Shown one piece after another: positions 9,968-24,083 of a stretch of 64,000 nucleotides of DNA. The DNA is from Obelidium mucronatum (taxonomy: Eukaryota; Chytridiomycota; Chytridiomycetes; Chytridiales; Chytriomycetaceae), in NCBI GenBank assembly GCA_025765595.1, contig JAIVFH010000049.1, forward strand, positions 62,001 to 126,000. Direction: 5' to 3'. The number at the start of each line of letters is the position of its first letter. The stretch's first letter is position 1. Under the pieces are notes generated by a model that worked only from the letters and a program-made list of their open reading frames with translations, made no database searches and was not told where the DNA came from. A program made the translations under genes and the position numbers.

Positions 9968-12900
9968 ATGTCAAAAACGTATAAGGGTTATTTCGACCCC
10001 GGTTGCAACAAGACTCTGATTCCAGATTCTAGTTGGTTCGAGAGTTTTGTCGAGATCAAGACCCCGATTGGTCTTGCTGACAATAACTCGATTGTTGGTA
10101 CGCAGCAAGGTGTTGTTCACTTTGACATCAATGGTCAAATTGTGACTATACCTGATGCGATTTATTCGAAGTCGTGTTACGTTACGCTATTTTCGATCTT
10201 GGATCTATTGGCTGGGCGACCATCGTGGAAGTGTTCTATTGATCAAGAAGGCTCTCGCGCTGTTTTCTCTGATAGTCAAACAAAGAAAACTTTATTCACG
10301 GCTGTCCAAGGTCCAAATGGTTTAAAGGAACTTCAATTCAAGATAGTTCATCGTTTATTCGCGAATATTTCGAAAAGTCTACCGGCTTCTTCAGATATTA
10401 TTCATCAAAGATTTGGTCATCCCAACGCTATGCATCTTCGCAAGTTGATTCACTCAGATTCGATAAATTCAAATCAATTTAAATCTATCGCGATTCCGGA
10501 TATTTATCAAAGTGAATCTTGTGAGGCGGGAAAATTTAAACGCGCTAAAGTCGGATCCGAATCTCAATGGGTTGCGATTAAAGCTCTTGGTCCGGGTGAA
10601 ATGATTCATGTGGATATTACCGGAAAATTCAATACTGGATTTTATTATAATTCACACATGTATTATTATTTCTTGATAGTCGTGGATGATTTTTCTCGCT
10701 ATTCATTCCTTCGATTATTGAACAAGAAATCTGATGTGTTGGCGCAATTGTTAGTGGTGATGGCGCTTATTGAAGTAACCACTCAACGTCAACTTCGGTT
10801 TATTCGCATCGATAATGGCAAAATTGCAACAAGCGCAATTTTCACAAATCATTGCGACGTTCGCGGTATTACGGTTGAAACTATAGTGGTGGATTATCCA
10901 CATATGGATGCTGTTGCTGAGCGTACTATTGGTCACGTCAAGTCTATTGCGCGTACTATTCACGTTCATGGTCAATTCGTGAAGAATATCTGGGGATATT
11001 CATCAATTTCGGCTAATGATTTACGGAATTTGTGGCCAAATGGTCATAATAATTTGGAGTCACCTTGTATGTGGTATTTTTCGTGTAAACCGGAGATTCA
11101 GCACTTTCGTGTTTTCGGGTGCAAAGTTTCGGTGCCAATCTATAAGAAAGGCAGTGAAGGAGAGTTGTCCCCGGATGTAGCTACTAAAACGTATGTTGGA
11201 CCTCACTCACCTTCGATTATTCGGTGTATTGATAGTCATGGGTCTTTGAGTTATCATCGATTCCAAGATTGCTCTTTTCATGAAACGGTGTTTCCGCAAT
11301 TGATTTCAGTAGATGCTACTGATTCTCAATCGTCAACGCGTGAGTTTCCGGAGGATTCTCAAATTATGTCTGCAGATGAAGAACGGGACTTTAATTCAGA
11401 ACTCAATAATGCAGTTTCTGAAGTTATTAGTCTGAGAAAACGCAATTCTCTTGATAAAACGGATGGTATTGTCGATCTTTTGGTTCAGGGGGAGGAAAGT
11501 ACCAATGGAAAATCAGTAACACGTCAAACACGCTCTATGCGCAGCAAACGAGTGAAAATTGTTGAAAGTAATTCGGATTCGGATGAAGAGGATGAAGATT
11601 CATCATCGGATTTTGAAGATACTATCGATGAAGTTGGTAGTCGCGCGATGTTGACGCAATCGCTAAGTGTTTTACCTATATTTCCTGTTCCGGAAACGTT
11701 GGTTTATTCAATGAATGCGGTTTCTATTAAGGAAACTTCTATTGGTATGGATTGGGAGGGAACTATTCCAACGCGTCACGCAGATATTCGACGAACTCAA
11801 AATATCAAGGAATGGTTAGCCGCCGAAGAAGCGGAATTGAAGAATCTCGAAAATCATAATACTTATTGCAAGATTCCTGAGTCCGAAGTTCCTGAAGGTG
11901 CAGAGATTATTCCAACGATGGAAGTCTATGCTGTAAAGAACCATAAGGATCTACCACCGGACAAAGTCTTGAAATATAAAGCTCGAATTGTTTTGTCAAC
12001 ACATATTCACCAGTTATCAAGACTACAACGTTGAGATTTCTGATTGCAATGAGCACTTGGTTGGGAATTGGAATGTTCCTTGCTTGACGCGGTTGGTGCT
12101 TACTTGAATGGGGTGCTTGATGTTACTGTTTACGTCAGACCGCCTGCGTGCTATCCGAAGAAAAATGTCATTTGGCTTTTATTGAAAGGTCTTTACGGTT
12201 TGAAACAAGCGGGATTATTGTGGTATCTGAAATTATGCGATATCTTGAAATCTCTCGGTTATACTGCAAGTTATGCGGATCCATGTCTGTTTCAAAAATA
12301 CGCTAACGGATACTGGATTTGGATAGCGTTCTATGTCGACGATTTATTGATTTGCTGTCATGATTCAATTATCGAATTCGGTTATTGCGTCTTTGAAAGC
12401 GAAAGTTGACATTGTGTACAAGGCACTGAATATCACCTGGGTCTTGAAATTGAATACGCGTCTGATCGAAGCTATTCGTTTCTTCATCAGTCAAAATATG
12501 TTCAACGCGTCTTACGTCGATTCAGGATGGAAGCGTGTATGGGACTCAAACCCCTGATGGAAGTTAAAGCGAATTACAAACCTAAGAGGTACGACAAAGA
12601 ATCTTTGGATTTGACGAAGTTCGATTATAATTCGTTCATCAGAAGTTTAATGTATCCTTGCAATATCGCTCGATTTGATATTTCTGTCAGTGTTAGTTTG
12701 TGGGCTCGCGGTCTTGGAAATCCTACCGCCCACCATTGGGATGGTGCAAAACGCGTCTTAAGATATTTGAAGCACTCGTACGATATGGGGATAATTTATT
12801 ATCGCGCCCCGAATCCTATTCCCAAGCAGATTTATATTATCGGTTTAACGGATGCATCAGAACCTGACAGAGAAAGTGCGAAAGCTCAAACTGGATGGTT

Positions 12901-13638: not shown

Positions 13639-14247
13639 CCCCCTTTCATTTTAATAGCCTGCTTGCTCTGAGCCCAACATGCGTTTGAGGCTTTTGAGCG
13701 ATTGGAAAAGGCAACACTGAACCCTATACCACACTTCAACAACGGCAATACCAAAAACTTGTGACTTTATTAACTATTGATTATCGGCTGTGTTTGGACA
13801 GATGTGTGGTGGTGTCATTTTCGCAGAATGATGTTCGCAGAATGATGTTCACACCACCAGTACAACTTGTGCTATGAAAAAGTAAATCAAGATATAATAA
13901 CTACTCAAAATAGCATTGTACAGTCCTGCAAAGACACTATGCAGGGCGGACAATGAAATGGACAGCAAAACAGGGTTATAATTTTAAGAAGTTCATTGAT
14001 CGAAGGTTATAGATAAGCAAGTCGACGACGATCGCCGCACCTGCCGGTAGCGTTGGCTGTGGGTGTCGCTTCAGGCAGGCGAATGGCCGCAGACGGTGGG
14101 CAGCATGGCTGGCACGTGGCAGGGCAGTGTGTGTGTTTTTGCAGAGCCAAGCACTTGCGGGTTGAGTGGTCGGGTGGCCAAGCATTTCATTCTTTCTTTC
14201 CAAAACTTTGACAGCCACCCTTTCCCCCAGCGCCAATTCAAAGCAAA
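13639..14247. other. intergenic region between retrotransposon and homeobox gene
   Basis: No coding region supported. It contains a direct repeat of CGCAGAATGATGTTC near 13822-13853. The long Arg-rich minus-strand ORF reaching into it is a GC-skew shadow. Confidence 0.5.
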
Positions 14248-15015
14248 ATGACGTCAACGGCCCTCGACGCCCTCGTTCTCGTTGCCGCGTCGCTGCTCGA
14301 TCTCGAGCGAGCAGCGCGCAAGCGCCCGGTGTTCGCCGCCGCTGCGCGCGTCGACGGCTTCGACGGCTTCGCCGACTTCGACGGCGGCTTCGACGACCGC
14401 CGCTCGTCCGTGTCGTCGGCGGCGTCGGTGTTCTCGGCGGCGCTGACGGGCGGCGACTCGGACGACGACGACGACGACGACGGCGACTCGGACGCCGACG
14501 CGCGCTCGCCCGCCGTGCCCACGCTGACCGCCTTCTCGTCGCCCGCCGCCTACCCGCAAGTCGCCCCGCCGCTTCGCCCGAAAAACTGTCGTGCGCGGGG
14601 CGCCGTACGGCGTCGCACGTGTGCGCCGGTGAGTGCGCGATCGAGTCAAAACATCGTGACTCACCCTGTCTTCTTTCTTTCTTTCTTGCTTCTAGTCCGT
14701 CGCCGCCTGCCTCCGCGCATGAAGAAGACGAAGAACTCGAAGACGCCAGTCCGCGTGCAACCGCTGCTGCTGCCGCATCGTCGATGCCACAAGTGATTGT
14801 GAACCCAACGATCGCGCCACCCTCTCCCGCCTCTCTCAAGTCAAGAGCAAACTTTACCCCTGATGTCTTGGATATTCTGACGTCTTGGCTCGTGGCCCAC
14901 AAACAAGATCCGTACCCGACTGTCGAGCAAAAGAGGGCTCTTGCTTCTACAGTGCGGCTTGAACATGAAGCAAGTCAACAACTGGTTCATTAACGCTCGC
15001 CGTCGACGCATTTGA
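14248..15015 (+). CDS. TALE-class homeodomain transcription factor, reading frame interrupted
   Basis: The first exon begins MTSTALDALVLVAASLLDLE and carries an acidic stretch (GGDSDDDDDDDGD) in very GC-rich DNA. A GTGAGT donor (about 14630) and a pyrimidine-rich acceptor (TTCTAG, about 14696) bound an intron. The homeodomain follows: SRANFTPDVLDILTSWLVAH then KQDPYPTVEQKRALAST, the three-residue-extended loop type, and finally KQVNNWFINARRRR. The last helix is one base out of frame with the first two: a single extra G in ACAGTGCGG near 14952 breaks it. The exon 1/2 phase also does not fit cleanly. This is either a sequencing/assembly indel or a decayed gene. Functional TALE proteins bind DNA and control development. 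Confidence 0.65.
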
Positions 15016-15250: not shown

Positions 15251-16642
15251 CTACACTTGTTTTATTTCAACATAGATTTCACCGAGCTCAAACCGCCTTC
15301 GCACGTTGGACTTGATTCTTTCCACGAATGCTGAGTGGTTCAAAACAAGATTCTGTGCTGTTGTACTCTCCCCTTTAACATCGTACACAGTTTCCTCCTC
15401 ATCCTCAACGACAGAATCGGTAGAAACAATATCCATTGTTTCGACTTTTGAAAGCGACTCAACCGTCTCATCTGCCGCTAAACTGACTGTAACCACCAAG
15501 ACGCAGCACTCTTTCCCTTCTGTCAACATCCAAACTTTACATACCTCAACACCAACAACCACATTATTATCACTGAACCATCCACCACTGCCCGTCCTAA
15601 ACTCCTCCACAATCCCTTCCTTCAACACATCCACATCCACACCGTCAGGAACACTTTCCATAAGCACCATCATATACCGTTTCAACAGCCCTAAACTACT
15701 CATGAAAATAATAACACTGAATAGAATCGTGCACAAGGGATCCAGGATTGTCCATGTCGGTTGATACATCAATACCAGCGCCGCAATCAAGATTGAAATC
15801 GAGCCAAGCAGGTCTCCAACGATATGAATCATTGCAGCTTGGACGTTGAGATTGCTGCTGCTTTCAGTTCTCCTCCTGCTAATGGAATCCTGTGAATGGC
15901 TGGCTGCCGGTCTGGTATCGTCGTTGTCGATTTCTTGACGTGATTTCATTGATAATAATAAGCTGCTTGATTCATCGTTCTTGCTGTTATCAACGACAGA
16001 TTTGTTTTCTTCCTGTTGAAGTTCACTCGTATTTGGCGATTCAGATGAGGTCAGCGCAAGCGCCATAACTGCATTCGCAAAACAGCTAAAGAGAGCTCCT
16101 AAAGCCATTGCAGGAGCGTTTATTTCTTGTGATTGTTGAGGTGACTGGATTCTGTGGAATGCTTCTTCAATGAGATGATATATGAGGTTCCTAAAAAAAA
16201 AAACAAGTCACAAAACAATAGCAAATAGATATCAGTTGCAGTTCTCGGCCAGCAAAAAGATTTAAAAAAACAGTATGTAACCAAGTAAGAAGGAGAGACA
16301 TGAGAGCTCCAATGAGTTCTACTCGAGCAAATCCAAAGGTGTAATCTGTTTTTTAGCGTTTTTTTTGTTTAGGAAACAGCGCCCGTCCCCTCTTCTCTAA
16401 ATAAAAACTGCTACTACTCAACGTTTCGTTGCAGGCCAGGTTCCAATCTCAGCGGCTGCGATAGCGATGGCATATCCCAGCAAATCAGTAGACATGTGGA
16501 CAGCGTCAGACAGAATGGCTAAGCTGCCTGTCCAGAATGCAGCGCAGATTTCAACCAGAAAGAAGGCGAAGCATATGAGGCCTGCTTTGAGCAGCGGCGA
16601 TAGTGATGTGGGCTTGTGCCATGAGGTTGTTGAAGGTGCCAT
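15251..16642 (-). CDS. CDF-family zinc transporter, array member A (canonical metal site)
   Basis: The first exon (16418-16642) contains FAFFLVEICAAFWTGSLAI then LSDAVHMSTDLLGYAI, with HxxxD in TM II. The large exon (from about 16108) has AAMIHIVGDLLGSISILIA with the TM V HxxxD, then DPLCTILFSVIIF, and a cytoplasmic C-terminal domain (LLTEG-like KVWMLTEGKECCVL, ELGEIYVEIKQV). This 2-His/2-Asp set is the zinc-selective site of ZnT/Zrc1-like H+/Zn2+ antiporters. The TM IV-V loop is Ser/Asn/Asp-rich rather than His-rich. It is the first of four same-strand paralogues and is closest to member B. Confidence 0.9.
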
Positions 16643-16725
16643 AATTTTTCAAATAAAATATTTTAATGTTCCATAATAAATAAATATTGTTCATTCAAAA
16701 AAGGTTGCTTTAAGCAATGAAGTCT

Positions 16726-17250
16726 TTAAGAGCAAATGCTGTTGATTTTTTCCTTGAAGAAAACCTTCTGATAAAACAGCCTCGTCTTTGACTTCCAAAA
16801 CATCTGGATTGGAAAAAAAAGTGCAGCTTTCACTCCGATTCGTTTCAAGACAGAAATCATCTCCTGCGTGAATTCTGAATTCTGAATTACTATGTATGGT
16901 CGTCCATTGGAGAGAGAGGGTATGTTTCCATCATGAATTTGGACAGAGGTCTTGTAGTTGAACTTTCTGATTGTTTCCCATTCATCCGGCGTGAAGATTT
17001 CCGGTAATCTGATGCTGGTGAGTGGTTGAAAGCACCAGTCATTCTCCTTCAATTCCATCCTTCGCAGCAAAGCACATCGCCAATCGTTGGCCCACTCTTG
17101 TACTGAAAACTGAAATTGTAAAAACTGGAGGACAGTTTTTGTGCAATAGCCGTCCAGATACTTTCTACACGACGCAACCAAACTTTCTCTTTTCAAAATT
17201 GCGTTTTTTGTAAACGAGGAGCTGTGCTTGGGAAATTGGAGGAATTCTCA
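16726..17250 (-). pseudogene. unrecognised ORF between CDF genes A and B, possibly a gene remnant
   Basis: An open frame with no good ATG. It reads SLVASCRKYLDGYCTKTVLQ, RRMELKENDWCFQPL, FTPDEWETIRKFNYKTSVQI and ends KINSICS. A second frame just upstream (RTWEPALTKVLVSSAADVADF, about 17250-17330) would need a frameshift or an undetected intron to join. Protein-like composition suggests a genuine former or spliced gene; no family recognised. Confidence 0.3.
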
Positions 17251-17501
17251 ATATGGACCAGCCTTTCGAAAGTCGGCCACATCAGCTGCGGAAGAAACCA
17301 AGACTTTTGTCAGCGCGGGTTCCCAAGTACGACTGTTCAGTTGTCGAGTCCACGAGCAGAAACCAAACGAGAAGAGGATAAGTAATTTTGCAGTAATTTT
17401 GTTTTGAAAATAAATACAAATAGACACCTCAAACTCAATGGAATAAACCGTTAACTTCTGCAATTTATACTAAATTAATGTTGGAAACTCAGAGGAAAAC
17501 G

Positions 17502-19154
17502 TCATGAAGCCACTCGAATCTCGATACAAATCTCCTCAAACCCAAATTCACTCTTCAAGTACTCTCGTACAGAGTCCAAGATTTGATTATACCCATTTCG
17601 ATCTCCGTCCTCTTCTTGGTAAGTTACCAACTTGACAACTTCTTCTTCCGTCACATCCGTACTAGAATACATATCCACATCCCCAATGATCCCAAACCCT
17701 TCCTCTCGCCGCTTCTTGCCCGCTTTACCTTCCCCGCCTCTTCTGCCACCATCACCAAACTTTACAACACCAGACGAAACAACAACCCTTAAAATACAAC
17801 ACTCCTTACCCTGCGTCAAACTCCAACACCGCACCGCCTCCACCTCAACAACTCCAACAACATTCTCCACAACACCACATCTAACATCCTCTACATCCAC
17901 CCCAGAAGGACAAGTTTCCATCAGGATCATGATATACTGCTTCGCGAGGCCCAAGCTACTCACAAAAATAATAATGCTAAAGAGGATCGTGCACAACGGG
18001 TCAAGAACCGTCCATGATGGTTTAAACGTTAGGATCGTGGCGGCAATGAGAATCGAAATGGATCCAAGTAGGTCTCCGAGGATATGAATCATGGCGGCTT
18101 GTACGTTGATGTTGTTTTGGATGCTGCTGCTGCTGCTTGGATTATTGTTGTTCTTGACCTTGGTTGGAGTGAGATTGGATTCAATGTCGACTTCGGGTTC
18201 TGAACCAGATCCAAATAGAGTTGAAGTTTCTGGGTTGAATAACGTGAGTGTTGGGCTGCTTGGTTGTTGTTGTTGTTGCTTCATTTCTACGGATTCGGAG
18301 GTGGCAAGGATGTCATCATCACCGGATGAGAGGGTATTGTGGTGATGATGGTGGTGGTCGTGATCATGGTCGTGATGTGGGTCTTGAAGCATGAATGCCA
18401 TGAATGAGTTGGCTGCCACTCCAAACAAGGCACTGATGAGCATGGCTGGGGCATTTATCTCGGACGGTTCGTTGATTCTATGAAGCGCTTCTTGAATTAA
18501 TCCGAATACAAGGTTCCTGTATTGTTTTTGTTGTGAGCAACGGGGTGTGTGAACTTTGGTCGACGACTCGGTACGTACCATGTCAGAAACAAGGAAATAA
18601 GTGCTCCAATCAGTTCAACTCGAGCGAATCCAAATGTGTAACCTTAAAATAGAAAGAATTATAAGCAGAGAGTCAGGAGACGGACGGTGGAGGGTGGAGA
18701 AATCCCGCATGACGGTCACAAGGGGAGTTGGGAAATTTCATTGGTAACGGGCATCCGCGACTAAACTCGCTTCGAGTCTCAGCACATGGGGAATACAGCG
18801 ATTCCTTTCTTTCGATATTCCTTGTTGGAATCGCAACGCACTCTTCTTCTTCCGGAGAGCCACTTTCCCTGAACTCTCCCTTCATGTTTTTATGCAAGGG
18901 CCAACCAAGACGCATTCAAAAACTCCCATCACAAGATTTAGGAGAGACAATCAATACATACTTTTAGTTGCTGGCCAAGTTCCAATCTCAACGGCAGCGA
19001 TTGCCACACAATACCCAATAACATCTGTAAGCATGTGTACCGAGTCACTCAGGATAGCCAGGGATCCAGCCCACCATCCAGCCGCAAGCTCAACAAGAAA
19101 GAAGACGAAGCAAATGAGACCGGCTTTGATTAGCGGTAGCGTTGCCGGGGTCAT
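17502..19154 (-). CDS. CDF-family zinc transporter, array member B (canonical metal site, His-rich loop)
   Basis: Exon 1 begins MTPATLPLIKAGLICFVFFL with SGSLAILSDSVHMLTDVIGY-like TM II (HxxxD). The main exon carries the TM IV-V loop with PHHDHDHDHHHHHHNT, the His-rich cytosolic loop typical of zinc CDF proteins, and TM V AAMIHILGDLLGSISILIA (HxxxD). It continues DPLCTILFSIIIFVSSLGLA and a C-terminal domain (WSLTQGKECCILRVVV, EFGFEEICIEIRVAS). This is the most classical zinc exporter or vacuolar sequesterer of the array. Intron sites lie at about 18580 and 18640-18955. Confidence 0.92.
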
Positions 19155-19351
19155 TGATACAAGTTGAACAAAGGTTCAGCAAAGATTTTTGGGTTTGTTT
19201 TTATTTGGGATCACAGTTTCAGCTTGCGTGCCCACTTTACAGACGAATGCATGCACTGGTTTGTATAAATATCATCAAATCGAAATTTTAAGTATGGGTA
19301 ATAGAATAACTTGGGGGTTTTACTTGCATTATATTTTTCTTTTCCCCCTCA

Positions 19352-20528
19352 TCAAAACTCTCGAGTTCCCAGAATCTCTATAAATACTTCGCAAATCCCA
19401 TATTCCCTCTCTAAACACACTCTCACAAGATCCTTGATGGAATCATGGTATTCATGAACTGCTTCATGCATCTCCAATGATGACGTGCTGTCATTCACGT
19501 TGGCCATTTTCTCGACCGATATTTTCAAGAGACACACTTCGTGGCCTGGGGTGAGAGACCAGACTCGGATAAGATGAATTTTCGTTATGCAAGGTAGCGT
19601 TTGGATTAATTTGGATTGGATGGTTTCAATGCAAAGGTGTTTTGGGACAGCTGCAAAAAAAAAAGAAAAGGTGTGAGTTCAACCATAGCGTTTGAAAAAA
19701 AAAAAGACTCGTTTACCTTCCAAAATAATCAACAAATATTGCTCAACGAGCCCGAATGATGTGGCAAATGTGACCAAAGCGATAAGAATCGTGCAGATGG
19801 GATCCACAAGAGTGGATTCCGGGTAAAACATCATCAAAACAGAGGCAATAAGCAAGAGAACAGAGGAAATGGTATCAGTTATAGATGCAATAAATGCAGT
19901 ACGGATATTAATATTTGTGTGTGCATTCGTTGAAGGGCTTGGCGTGGCACTTGTTGTGGGAAGAAGCGGTGTGTCTTCTGACACGATTCCTTGATTCGAC
20001 TTTGCAGATGGAGAGAGCATAAATAGAGTCACTACGCTTCGAAAGAGAGCAAATAAAGCTACAGGAAGCATGATTCGAGCATTAACTGGCTGCGGTGATT
20101 TGAGGGCTGCCCATGATTGAACCAGCAATCCAGCAGCAAGAAACCTGAGAGGAGAGTTCTAAATCATCCAAAGTTTGATTTGCACAGAAATCTTACCAGT
20201 TTAGAAACACAGTGACCATACTTCCTAGCAGTTCCATTCTTGCAAATCCAAATGTGTGGGCTGGTAAACAAACGGTTAGAACACACCTCCACCCACCAAG
20301 ACACAAGAGAGCCTTCGGCCACTTACTGACTGTTGGACTCCACGCTCCCATATGTACAGCACCCCAGGAAATGGAGAATCCAAGCACAGATTGTAGAAGG
20401 TTAAAGGAGTCGGAGAGGATGGCAAGTGATCCCGACATCCATCCGGCAGCAAACTCCACAACAAAGAAGGCGAATCCAAAGGCTGCTACTCGAAACAAGA
20501 GCGATGCAGCGGCAATGTGTTGTGTCAT
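19352..20528 (-). CDS. CDF-family protein, array member C (metal ligands lost)
   Basis: Same fold order as A and B: exon 1 FAFFVVEFAAGWMSGSLAIL, SDSFNLLQSVLGFSI; middle exon TAFIASITDTISSVLLLIAS, DPICTILIALVTFATSFG; C-terminal CEVFIEILGTREF. The TM II HxxxD is replaced by NxxxS and the TM V HxxxD by AxxxD, leaving one of four ligands. There is no His-rich loop; the loop is short, with a dileucine-like EDTPLLP. The protein is intact otherwise. It may be a non-transporting partner, as ZnT6 and yeast Zrg17 partner an active CDF, or it may be decaying; that is inference. Confidence 0.82.
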
Positions 20529-20661
20529 TTATCTGCAGATTTGTCTCAAAGCGGCGCGTGCTGGAAAACTAAATATTAAATTATTGACTTGCAAAGTTCG
20601 ATTGGACACTCAGCCCGACAGGCAAATGTTTTTTTTATTTAATGCTGAAGCAATTTGGTCG

Positions 20662-21825
20662 CTATCGTGTATACCGCACTTGCACGTAACTCTCATGTAT
20701 CCCAAATGACGCCAGAGAATCCTTCACACCTTGCACAAGAAAATCATGATTGCTCCGCCAAGGAGTTTCAGTAGCGAGAGAGGCGCTTGTGATATCGTCA
20801 TGGTATATGTTTGGGGTTCCGGGAGAAAACTGTGGGCACTCTGCCAGCAGTTCCACGATACCGACCAACTTCCCTTGTGTTAACGTCCACACTTTCAGAG
20901 ATTTTACAGCTTTTACTGCAGGTACGGCAACAAGGGCCTCATTTATCGTGTCAATGCAAATGTTACTTGGGGAACCTAGAGAAGGAGAAGGTTACGCAAG
21001 AACAGAAAGAAAAAGAACCATACCTTCCATGAGAATATTCATATACTCCTCAATCAATCCAAATGTTGCAGCAAAAATAATGACTGCAACAAGAATAGTG
21101 CAGATGGGATCAATCAGGGTCCACTTTGGCTTAATCAACAGAATCACAGACGAAATGAGAATAAATATAGAACCCAGAAGATCTGCGTATGTTCGAACAA
21201 CGGCTGCAACAACATTAATGTTTTGATCGTCTTCTTCGTCTTCTCGAGAAACTTTTCCTTCTTCACCACTTTCCAGCCCAATATATGAAGCCCACGACGA
21301 AGCTGATTTCTGTAAGGCATACGTCATGCATAAACTTCGGAGGAACCCAAGAGTCGCTGTTGCCATCATAACTGGTGCATTAACTCCCACTGGGTGCTTG
21401 AGAACAATTGCAGCTTCAGCAAGTAACCCAATTGCCAGCCCCCTACGAGTTTGAGATAAAGTAAGAGAATCAATAAACCGAGTAAGATATCGATTGTTCC
21501 TTACCAGTTTAGGAGTATCCCGACCATTGCACCCACAAGTTCGACTCGCTGGAACCCAAAAGTGAATCCTAAACAACACTATAGTTTCAGGAACCACAAC
21601 CCCATGAATCCAGCCCATCCCAAGAACTCAACTGCTTGTTGCCTCCCATGCTCCAATCTCAACAGATGCAATGGCAATACTATATCCAACGACATCGACA
21701 AGCAAGTTCAATGAATCTGAGAGGATTGCAAGCGACCCCGAGTACCAGCCCGCCCCGAATTCAATCAGAAAGAATGTGAATGAGATTGATCCAGCCCGAA
21801 GCAGCGGTATAGAGGCTGGTATCAT
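20662..21825 (-). CDS. CDF-family protein, array member D (altered metal site)
   Basis: Start chosen at MIPASIPLLRAGSISFTFFL (21825), matching the starts of A-C. TM II reads SDSLNLLVDVVGYSIAIASV (NxxxD) and TM V reads AAVVRTYADLLGSIFILISS (RxxxD), so both His ligands are gone while both Asp remain. DPICTILVAVIIFAATFGL follows, and the short C-terminal domain ends YVQVRYTR. An N-D arrangement in TM II is seen in Mn-transporting SLC30A10, but the Arg in TM V makes ordinary transport doubtful. It is most similar to member C. Confidence 0.82.
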
Positions 21826-22214: not shown

Positions 22215-23141
22215 ATGGAAACGACTTTGATTGCTTCTACTCTGATTGTATCCGTGTTTCTCTTCACTTTTCATTCCCGAAACTCACTTCAGATTCAAAT
22301 GGCATCAACAACTCCATCCCTCATAACGACAGTCCGATCAAATCTTGCCAAGCATCCACATCCTGATTTAACCGAATTCAACAAATTAGAAAAGAAGTAA
22401 GGATACTTGTCAATTCAGGCGTGTTTATGTCTTGTCAACAGGAACAGAGCGGCGGTCTTAATCGCATTGGTCTGCGACGAAGCCAAGGACTCAGTTCACA
22501 TCCTTTTAAGCAGAAGAGCGCTTTCGCTAAGAACTCATGCTGGAGAGGTGGCGTTTCCTGGAGGTGTCTGACTTCGTCAAGTCATATCAATCTAACCAAA
22601 ACATCCAGGCCGAATGGACGAAATTGATCGCGACGCTCCAGAAACTGCCATCCGCGAAGCACACGAAGAAATTGGCCTACTTCCAGATTCATTGAAAGTG
22701 GCCTCAATACACGAGCCTGGGGTATCCTTACACAGACTACTCGTTGCACCTGTGTCTGCATTCATTGATCTTTCTCTCCTTGAATTTGCCGTTGTAAATC
22801 CATCCGTGTCGATTGCTGCAAACCTCGTTCGACACCTGCCTGTGAATCCGGATGAAGTGGAATCTGTGTTTGCAATTCCTTTGCAAGAATTCTTGAAACG
22901 CGAGAATCACGAGGAGCTGCATTTCGACGCAGATGACGGATCTGGTGGCGTTTGGAAGGCCCACAAATTTGACGTAGTGGATGAATGGGGAAGGGAGTAT
23001 AAAGTTTGGGGATTGACGGCACATATTCTTGTGGAGTTTGCAAGGATCGCTTTGGGCAGAGATCCAGAGTTTCCCCTGATTTCAAACGCGCAGAGGCCAA
23101 AGATTTTGAACAGAGCAGATAGAAGTACGAGGAGAGGATGA
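22215..23141 (+). CDS. NUDIX hydrolase, CoA-diphosphatase type (NUDT7/PCD1-like), copy 1
   Basis: Three exons (22215-22396, 22442-22563, 22609-23141) with two 45-nt introns. The N-terminal METTLIASTLIVSVFLFTF looks like a membrane or targeting segment; an internal Met (MASTTPSLITTV) is an alternative start. The CoA-pyrophosphatase signature HILLSRRALSLRTHAGEVAF plus FPGG precedes the NUDIX box, with MDEIDRDAPETAIREAHEEIGL, including REAHEEIGL. Near the C-terminus is the family's VWGLTAHILVEFARIALGR. Such enzymes hydrolyse CoA and CoA derivatives, often in peroxisomes or mitochondria. No C-terminal SKL-type signal is present (ends STRRG). Confidence 0.88.
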
Positions 23142-23182: not shown

Positions 23183-24083
23183 ATGACCACAATCGCTGCA
23201 GTCCTGAACAACTTAAAAAAGTATCGCGCCCCTGTTGGAAAACCCGACTTAACTTTGGCCGCCGGTCGGGAGTATGTCACCAACTTCTTTCAAATGTCAA
23301 AAGTCATTAACAAACAACTTGATTGCGATCACTCAGGCGTCAAGCAGGCGTTCTCATAGCTCTGATATTGGACTATTCCGACGATTCTGTTCACGTCATT
23401 TTGACGCTTCGCTCAAGTAGCCTCAGGACACATTCTGGAGATGTTGCCTTGCCAGGAGGTTACAAAGCTGCCGATACTTCGAACTTATATACCAAATATC
23501 TCAAAATCTTAATATTATCCAAATATTTAAGCATGCTGAACAGAAAATGGATGAAAGTGATGAATCAATAACAAGCACAGCTCTACGAGAAACTTCAGAA
23601 GAAATCAACCTACCGCCATCTGCCATTGATGTTATTTCAATCCACAAACCCGCTATCTCGATGCATAAAATAACGGTGACCCCAGTTTGTGGCGTGCTAT
23701 CAGAAAATATCTTTTTTCGAGAATTGGCAGAATCAAACCAACAGAACAACAGTGTCACACCAGACACCCTAACTTCACGTGTTTTATCAAAACTTCACGC
23801 AAACAAAGCCGAAGTCGAGTCCATATTCACTGCTCCTCTTCTTTTCTTCTTGAAGTCACGGAGTCATAGTGTGCAAGTCTTTTTTGGTATCAATGGGGAA
23901 GTCACACACAAGGCTCATCGATTTGAATACAAAGATGAATATGGGCGCGACTTTTTGATTTGGGGCCTCACGGCGTATATTTTGGTCGAAGTAGCACGCA
24001 TCGCGTTTGGGAGGGATCCAGATTTTGACACAATTAGTGCAGACGAATCGACCAAAGCTGTAGGAACATTGACGAAGGTCTAA
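23183..24083 (+). CDS. NUDIX hydrolase, CoA-diphosphatase type, copy 2 (degenerate NUDIX box, doubtful splice)
   Basis: Paralogue of the preceding gene. Exon 1 (from ATG 23183) ends at a GTATGT donor after LTLAAGRE; exon 2 carries RQAGVLIALILD and SSLRTHSGDVALPGG. The last exon has MDESDESITSTALRETSEEI then NL, so the Gly of the box (REUXEEXGU) is Asn, followed by LIWGLTAYILVEVARIAFGR. No GT-AG pair joins PGG to KMDESD in phase: the donor after PGG is phase 1 while the available acceptors are phase 0. It may be a pseudogene, use a non-canonical junction, or contain an indel. Confidence 0.65.

Follow-up and report, generated by a model that had tools for sequence, protein, structure and literature searches.

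Why would a genome keep cation diffusion facilitator (CDF) genes whose products lack the usual metal site next to CDF genes that have it? The question is raised by a 64,000-nucleotide stretch of the aquatic chytrid Obelidium mucronatum (positions 62001-126000 of contig C49, from an assembly of 48.3 Mb; here called the window), in which four CDF genes, A to D, lie head to tail on the minus strand at 15251-21825. This 6.6-kb array is transcribed in the order D-C-B-A. C and D lack both histidines of the HxxxD motifs in transmembrane helices (TM) II and V, as does a third paralogue, E, found elsewhere on the same contig. The explanation that we favor, and to which we give about an even chance, is that C, D, and E represent a CDF lineage of the Chytriomycetaceae that is maintained but does not transport, its members probably serving as partner subunits by analogy with ZnT6 and Zrg17.

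Ligand loss and a shared signature

All four genes match the Pfam family Cation_efflux (PF01545) at 103.4 to 140.9 bits against a cut-off of 26.6 (C, 103.4; D, 105). Their gene models have GT-AG at every intron, encode proteins of 407 (A), 423 (B), 330 (C), and 329 (D) amino acids, and are separated by 133 (D-C), 197 (C-B), and 859 (B-A) bases. The initial annotation had read A and B as keeping HxxxD in both helices, with a His-rich loop in B, and C and D as otherwise intact genes carrying NxxxS/AxxxD and NxxxD/RxxxD. Our gene models agree with this reading in every residue and coordinate (Table 1); the His-rich IV-V loop of B contains DPHHDHDHDHHHHHHN. C and D are each 100% identical over their full length to a deposited Obelidium mucronatum protein (P0019 and P0001, respectively). 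An alternative exon restoring the ligands, which the initial annotation had seen as a way for its reading to fail, was rejected: each motif is contained within an exon, and at 48-66 bases no intron of C or D could hold an exon with the lost ligands.

Table 1 Positions in the window of the four CDF genes and of the motifs in their products
Feature	Position	Exons or residues	Strand	Basis
CDF gene A	15251..16642	exons 16642-16423, 16345-16282, 16190-15251	-	gene model, Pfam
A HxxxD sites	TM II 16498-16484; TM V 15826-15812	H49xxxD53; H217xxxD221	-	
CDF gene B	17502..19154	exons 19154-18962, 18642-18579, 18516-17502	-	gene model, Pfam
B HxxxD sites	TM II 19037-19023; TM V 18086-18072	H40xxxD44; H230xxxD234	-	
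His-less CDF gene C	19352..20528	exons 20528-20327, 20260-20197, 20144-19717, 19650-19352	-	gene model, Pfam, AlphaFold2
C TM II NLLQS replacing HxxxD	20388..20402	N43xxxS47	-	
C TM IV LFRSV with lineage Arg	20033..20047	Arg124	-	
C IV-V loop ExxxLL motif EDTPLL	19961..19978		-	
C TM V ASITD replacing HxxxD	19874..19888	A175xxxD179	-	
His-less CDF gene D	20662..21825	exons 21825-21633, 21568-21505, 21442-21024, 20975-20662	-	gene model, Pfam, AlphaFold2
D TM II NLLVD replacing HxxxD	21694..21708	N40xxxD44	-	
D TM IV FLRSL with lineage Arg	21331..21345	Arg121	-	
D TM V RTYAD replacing HxxxD	21181..21195	R169xxxD173	-	

Are C and D alone in this loss? A Pfam profile search of the genome, in which genes are split by introns, returned 45 CDF matches and among them E (C49:222287-223556), 138 kb from D, with TxxxD/NxxxD and both histidines missing. 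A second copy of E on contig C422 differs at 15 of 350 residues, none of them at the ligand positions or at the lineage-specific Asn and Arg described below. Because C422 aligns with C49:212831-237042 in two collinear blocks of 95.7 and 96.4% DNA identity, the two copies of E are best read as probable alleles. Genome searches in which C or D alone was the query hit no locus outside the 45-match set, within which the matches on C99, C108, and C91:58471 were left unassigned. In a second genus, protein P0020 of Podochytrium sp. JEL0797 carries SxxxS/SxxxD and is 56% identical to C over 283 residues, versus 39% identical to D; P0020 is the C orthologue, and it too lacks the site.

To place these proteins among their relatives, we aligned 169 sequences, made up of A to D, E and its second copy, four other Obelidium paralogues, and 159 proteins from the database. 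These rows are the best matches listed in our searches plus the genome's own genes and not a random sample. The third database search scored 7996 candidates and gave the best 120 of 1281 matches; no absence of His-less members from Rhizoclosmatium or Chytriomyces can be claimed, as the matches listed for the D query omit P0020 though the two align. The gene models of paralogues L014, L015, L016, and L023 are rough, and the labels ZnT9-like, Msc2/ZnT7-like, and Mn-type for other Obelidium paralogues were given by eye only.

The four site residues are H/D/H/D (HDHD) in 160 rows, HDED in three, and HDSD in one; the five rows that lack both histidines are C, D, E, E's second copy, and P0020. All four distinct His-less members share an Asn in TM III, directly before a Trp (C88, D85, E90, and P0020 87), and an Arg in TM IV (C124, D121, E126, and P0020 125), and neither residue occurs in any of the 164 other rows. 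Also missing from the His-less members is an Arg that stands close to the end of TM III in 35 of 36 comparison rows. Most other conserved CDF residues are retained, including Asp of TM V and Glu of TM I, each in 4/4 members, and an acid before the TM II motif (Asp in three members, Glu in E). The TM II Asp is gone from both C and P0020, and only two of their four ligand positions agree. Since new polar residues are fixed and shared, more than mere decay is at work. A simple charge balance of one Arg per site Asp was dropped as an explanation, because other acids adjoining the site persist and because E has two Asp but a single Arg.

The pattern of functional Zn-CDFs, (H/D)xxxD in TM II with HxxxD in TM V, is present in A and B and absent from C, D, and E, which also lack the Mn-CDF/ZnT10 pattern (DxxxD in TM V, or NxxxD in TM II with HxxxD in TM V). 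In the IV-V loop, C and P0020 share an ExxxLL motif (EDTPLL and EHTPLL) within otherwise dissimilar sequence. Acidic dileucine-type motifs are sorting signals.

Is the rest of the protein intact? AlphaFold2 models of C and D have six TM helices and a ferredoxin-like cytosolic domain, their best structure matches are human ZnT structures, and Pfam finds no extra domain in either protein. C and D are thus predicted to keep the complete CDF fold.

Ancestry and maintenance

We built a tree from 41 selected rows of the 169, rooted at the midpoint only, and left out five alignment columns: the four of the ligands and that of the TM IV Arg. Tree and alignment are without ZnT5, ZnT6, Msc2, and Zrg17 sequences. 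The five His-less rows formed one clade (support 99/96), which persisted when the long row P0022 and the TM III Asn column were also removed (99/95). It lies within a group of 14 rows (100/100), of which the nine outside the clade are all HDHD and come from Obelidium, Podochytrium, Rhizoclosmatium, and Chytriomyces (Chytriomycetaceae). Recent copying of A or B as the origin of C and D was rejected on the low local identities (A-C, 27%; A-D, 38%; B-C, 32%); D and B are 40% identical over all aligned residues and reach 51% in their best-matching segment of 131 residues. An intron after TM VI is present in C, D, and E and absent from A and B. We dropped it as proof of kinship, because the distant paralogue L023 (a rough model) seemingly has an intron at the same place. 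Three things go beyond the initial annotation: the third His-less paralogue, the grouping of these genes in a single old lineage, and the Asn of TM III and Arg of TM IV that they have in common.

Two further observations concern A and the introns. A retains HDHD, yet its tree branch is far longer than that of B (1.09 versus 0.22). Introns starting with GTT are both of those in A and the first of D.

The initial annotation had proposed purifying selection on C and D as a check. A DNA search of the assembly found one copy of the array, otherwise only two matches of 110-120 bases at 73-74% identity, and no second allele for such a test; the codon-level result is therefore for the related gene E. 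Comparison of the two E copies revealed 16 synonymous changes in 243 sites and 15 nonsynonymous changes in 807 sites, a ratio of nonsynonymous to synonymous substitution (dN/dS) of 0.27 (Fisher P = 7e-4), with 0.17 in the transmembrane part and 0.44 in the cytosolic part, where changes are few. E is under purifying selection. For four other Obelidium CDF pairs, taken as alleles and compared over matched cores and not whole genes (one exon of one pair was skipped), the uncorrected ratios were 0, 0.12, 0.16, and 0, from 3-16 changes each; set against these lower ratios, E is constrained, but somewhat less. For C the evidence is conservation at the protein level: C and P0020 are 56% identical over aligned residues, compared with 63% for B and its Podochytrium counterpart P0002. 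When neutral drift of the C core was simulated to an amino acid identity of 0.60 or 0.54, both frames stayed open in 0 of 300 pairs at each level.

The assembly itself seems to hold two haplotypes in part, because several CDF loci are each represented by a near-identical pair on two contigs (C302/C1, C170/C20, C134/C12, C412/C40, and C422/C49). About 3 kb of C49 (225016-228054) is missing from the otherwise collinear C422 near position 12160, and the edges of this difference are repeats 70-76% identical, as after unequal exchange.

Proposed partner subunits and competing explanations

How might a CDF protein act without its metal site? CDF proteins that lost ligands and became partners have precedents in ZnT6 and Zrg17 (PMC7949119, PMC10932157, PMC1868760), and heterodimers with a site-less CDF are said to occur in plants too (PMC7949119). 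ZnT6, in which part of the site is missing, is the auxiliary protomer of ZnT5, with pairing probably via the cytosolic domain (PMC7949119). In ZnT8 the cytosolic domain, TM III, and TM VI form the static part of the dimer, and TM IV and V swing (PMC7428307). By analogy, C and D would not transport Zn2+. Each would use its retained cytosolic domain and TM III/VI to dimerize with an active paralogue, most obviously B or A. They would then set the stability, location, or activity of that partner, as ZnT6 does for ZnT5. The lineage Arg belongs to TM IV, one of the helices that swing in ZnT8, and the Asn to TM III of the static part; together the two may fix the protomer in a single state. The conserved ExxxLL of C may direct the complex to an internal membrane. 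The partner idea of the initial annotation survives the checks applied here: C is conserved in another genus even though its orthologue lacks the site as well, dN/dS is 0.27 in E, and an alternative exon is excluded.

Several observations weigh against this explanation. Forcing D into the A/B group costs 9.1 log units (approximately unbiased test, P = 0.057), and forcing C and E there without D costs 9.4 (P = 0.050). With E left out, support for C-D-P0020 is 93/86 and placement of D with A/B is not rejected (P = 0.27). The highest identity of D, 45%, is to an HDHD protein of Chytriomyces (P0048), and the His-less rows are long-branched, with a path of 1.19 between C and P0020 and long branches for D and E also. 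C, D, E, and P0020 appear to form one clade, with borderline topology tests against the alternatives. The codon-level evidence of selection is for E, whose ratio exceeds the 0-0.16 of the four comparison pairs. With both Asp and polar residues retained, E may yet bind a metal. The ExxxLL motif is found in the loop of A too (ESSSLL) and is missing from those of D and E. Finally, because E stands apart, with no other CDF match nearby on its contig, and the B-like and C-like genes of Podochytrium sit on different contigs, adjacency to A and B is a weak argument.

A more specific version, which we offer tentatively and hold to be rather unlikely, is that chytrids evolved a "plugged" CDF. The invariant Arg and Asn would replace the site and weld the moving TM IV/V to the static TM III/VI, giving a locked protomer as the metal-independent half, obligate or regulatory, of a mixed CDF dimer.

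Could the His-less proteins instead be regulators or sensors themselves, metal-free homodimers that detect metal or another ligand through the cytosolic domain? The presence of that domain in both models, the conserved residues specific to the lineage, and the distance of E from A-D would fit. However, Pfam shows no additional domain in C or D, and in the cited work the cytosolic domain serves dimerization (PMC7949119, PMC7428307). We consider this unlikely.

Still less probable is that some or all His-less members continue to transport, with the site rebuilt for a harder cation (Mn2+, Mg2+, or Ca2+) or for protons. The TM II NxxxD of D is the ZnT10 pattern (PMC10932157), the four positions of E (T/D/N/D) all have oxygen-type side chains, and the acids of TM V, of TM I, and before the TM II motif are kept. 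Yet ZnT10 retains HxxxD in TM V, where D has an Arg, and C and its orthologue have lost the TM II Asp and disagree at two ligand positions. The altered metal choice that the initial annotation had entertained for D is disfavored by the Arg at one of its ligand positions and by a further Arg in TM IV.

Dominant-negative members, whose dead dimers would lower CDF activity under metal shortage, seem improbable. Their fold and dimer parts are the same as those of the active paralogues, and the tight tandem order would permit joint regulation, but a Zap1-type element (one mismatch allowed) had no match in the array. Elsewhere in the window there were 5 such matches versus 1.9 expected, a number reached in 3 of 100 shuffles. 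About as improbable is that the His-less genes are degenerating copies heading for loss: the long branches and the cytosolic ratio of E would allow it, but the frames are open, with GT-AG introns and exact deposited matches for C and D, an orthologue shares the loss, E is under purifying selection, new residues are shared, and simulated neutral drift left no pair of frames open.

Other features near the array include, between A and B, a 173-codon open frame (16726-17247, minus strand) with no Pfam match above cut-off and about 119 bases (17261-17379) that match contigs C301 and C5 at 73-74%, perhaps a dispersed repeat. Two adjacent NUDIX-type frames (22596-23141 and 23421-24083, plus strand), the first at the Pfam cut-off and the second below it, are apparently another tandem pair. 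A KN-type homeobox match at 14166-14993 (plus strand) is below cut-off, with 25 of 40 profile positions in that frame.

Known site-less CDFs and significance

How do the proposed partner subunits compare with known CDFs? The A/B-type CDFs (Obelidium A and B, P0002-P0004, and P0047-P0050) are the nearest tree group (100/100), with the same fold and most conserved residues; unlike the His-less members, 9/9 are HDHD and 0/9 have the TM III Asn or TM IV Arg. ZnT6 (SLC30A6, the ZnT5 partner) is likewise a CDF without a full metal site. However, a 2007 survey places the ZnT6-like cluster in metazoans only (PMC1868760), whereas the chytrid clade lacks both histidines, has its own Asn and Arg, and groups with chytrid HDHD CDFs, in a tree without ZnT6. 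Zrg17, the yeast partner of Msc2, is also a fungal, heterodimeric CDF without the usual TM V motif (TxxxS/T) (PMC1868760, PMC10932157). The same survey describes the Zrg17-like cluster as confined to Ascomycetes, distant from Zn-CDFs, and bearing a His-rich III-IV loop (PMC1868760), whereas this loop in C, D, and E is short and free of His runs. The Mn2+ transporter SLC30A10 (ZnT10) resembles D in its TM II NxxxD and as a structural match, and differs in TM V (HxxxD versus RxxxD in D) (PMC10932157).

Site-less CDFs are already known from animals (ZnT6) and yeasts (Zrg17). Among the open-access papers listed in our searches, judged by title and the start of the abstract, none reported a His-less chytrid CDF lineage. 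From the sequences, the chytrid proteins look like a separate site-less lineage of a basal group of fungi, and a single genome holds at least three of its paralogues. The TM III N-W and TM IV Arg provide a simple sequence signature for finding further members. The array allows one to ask what an inactive protomer contributes to a CDF dimer, and diverged, apparently non-transporting protomers adjoining active ones within 6.6 kb would offer a route to why CDFs are dimers.

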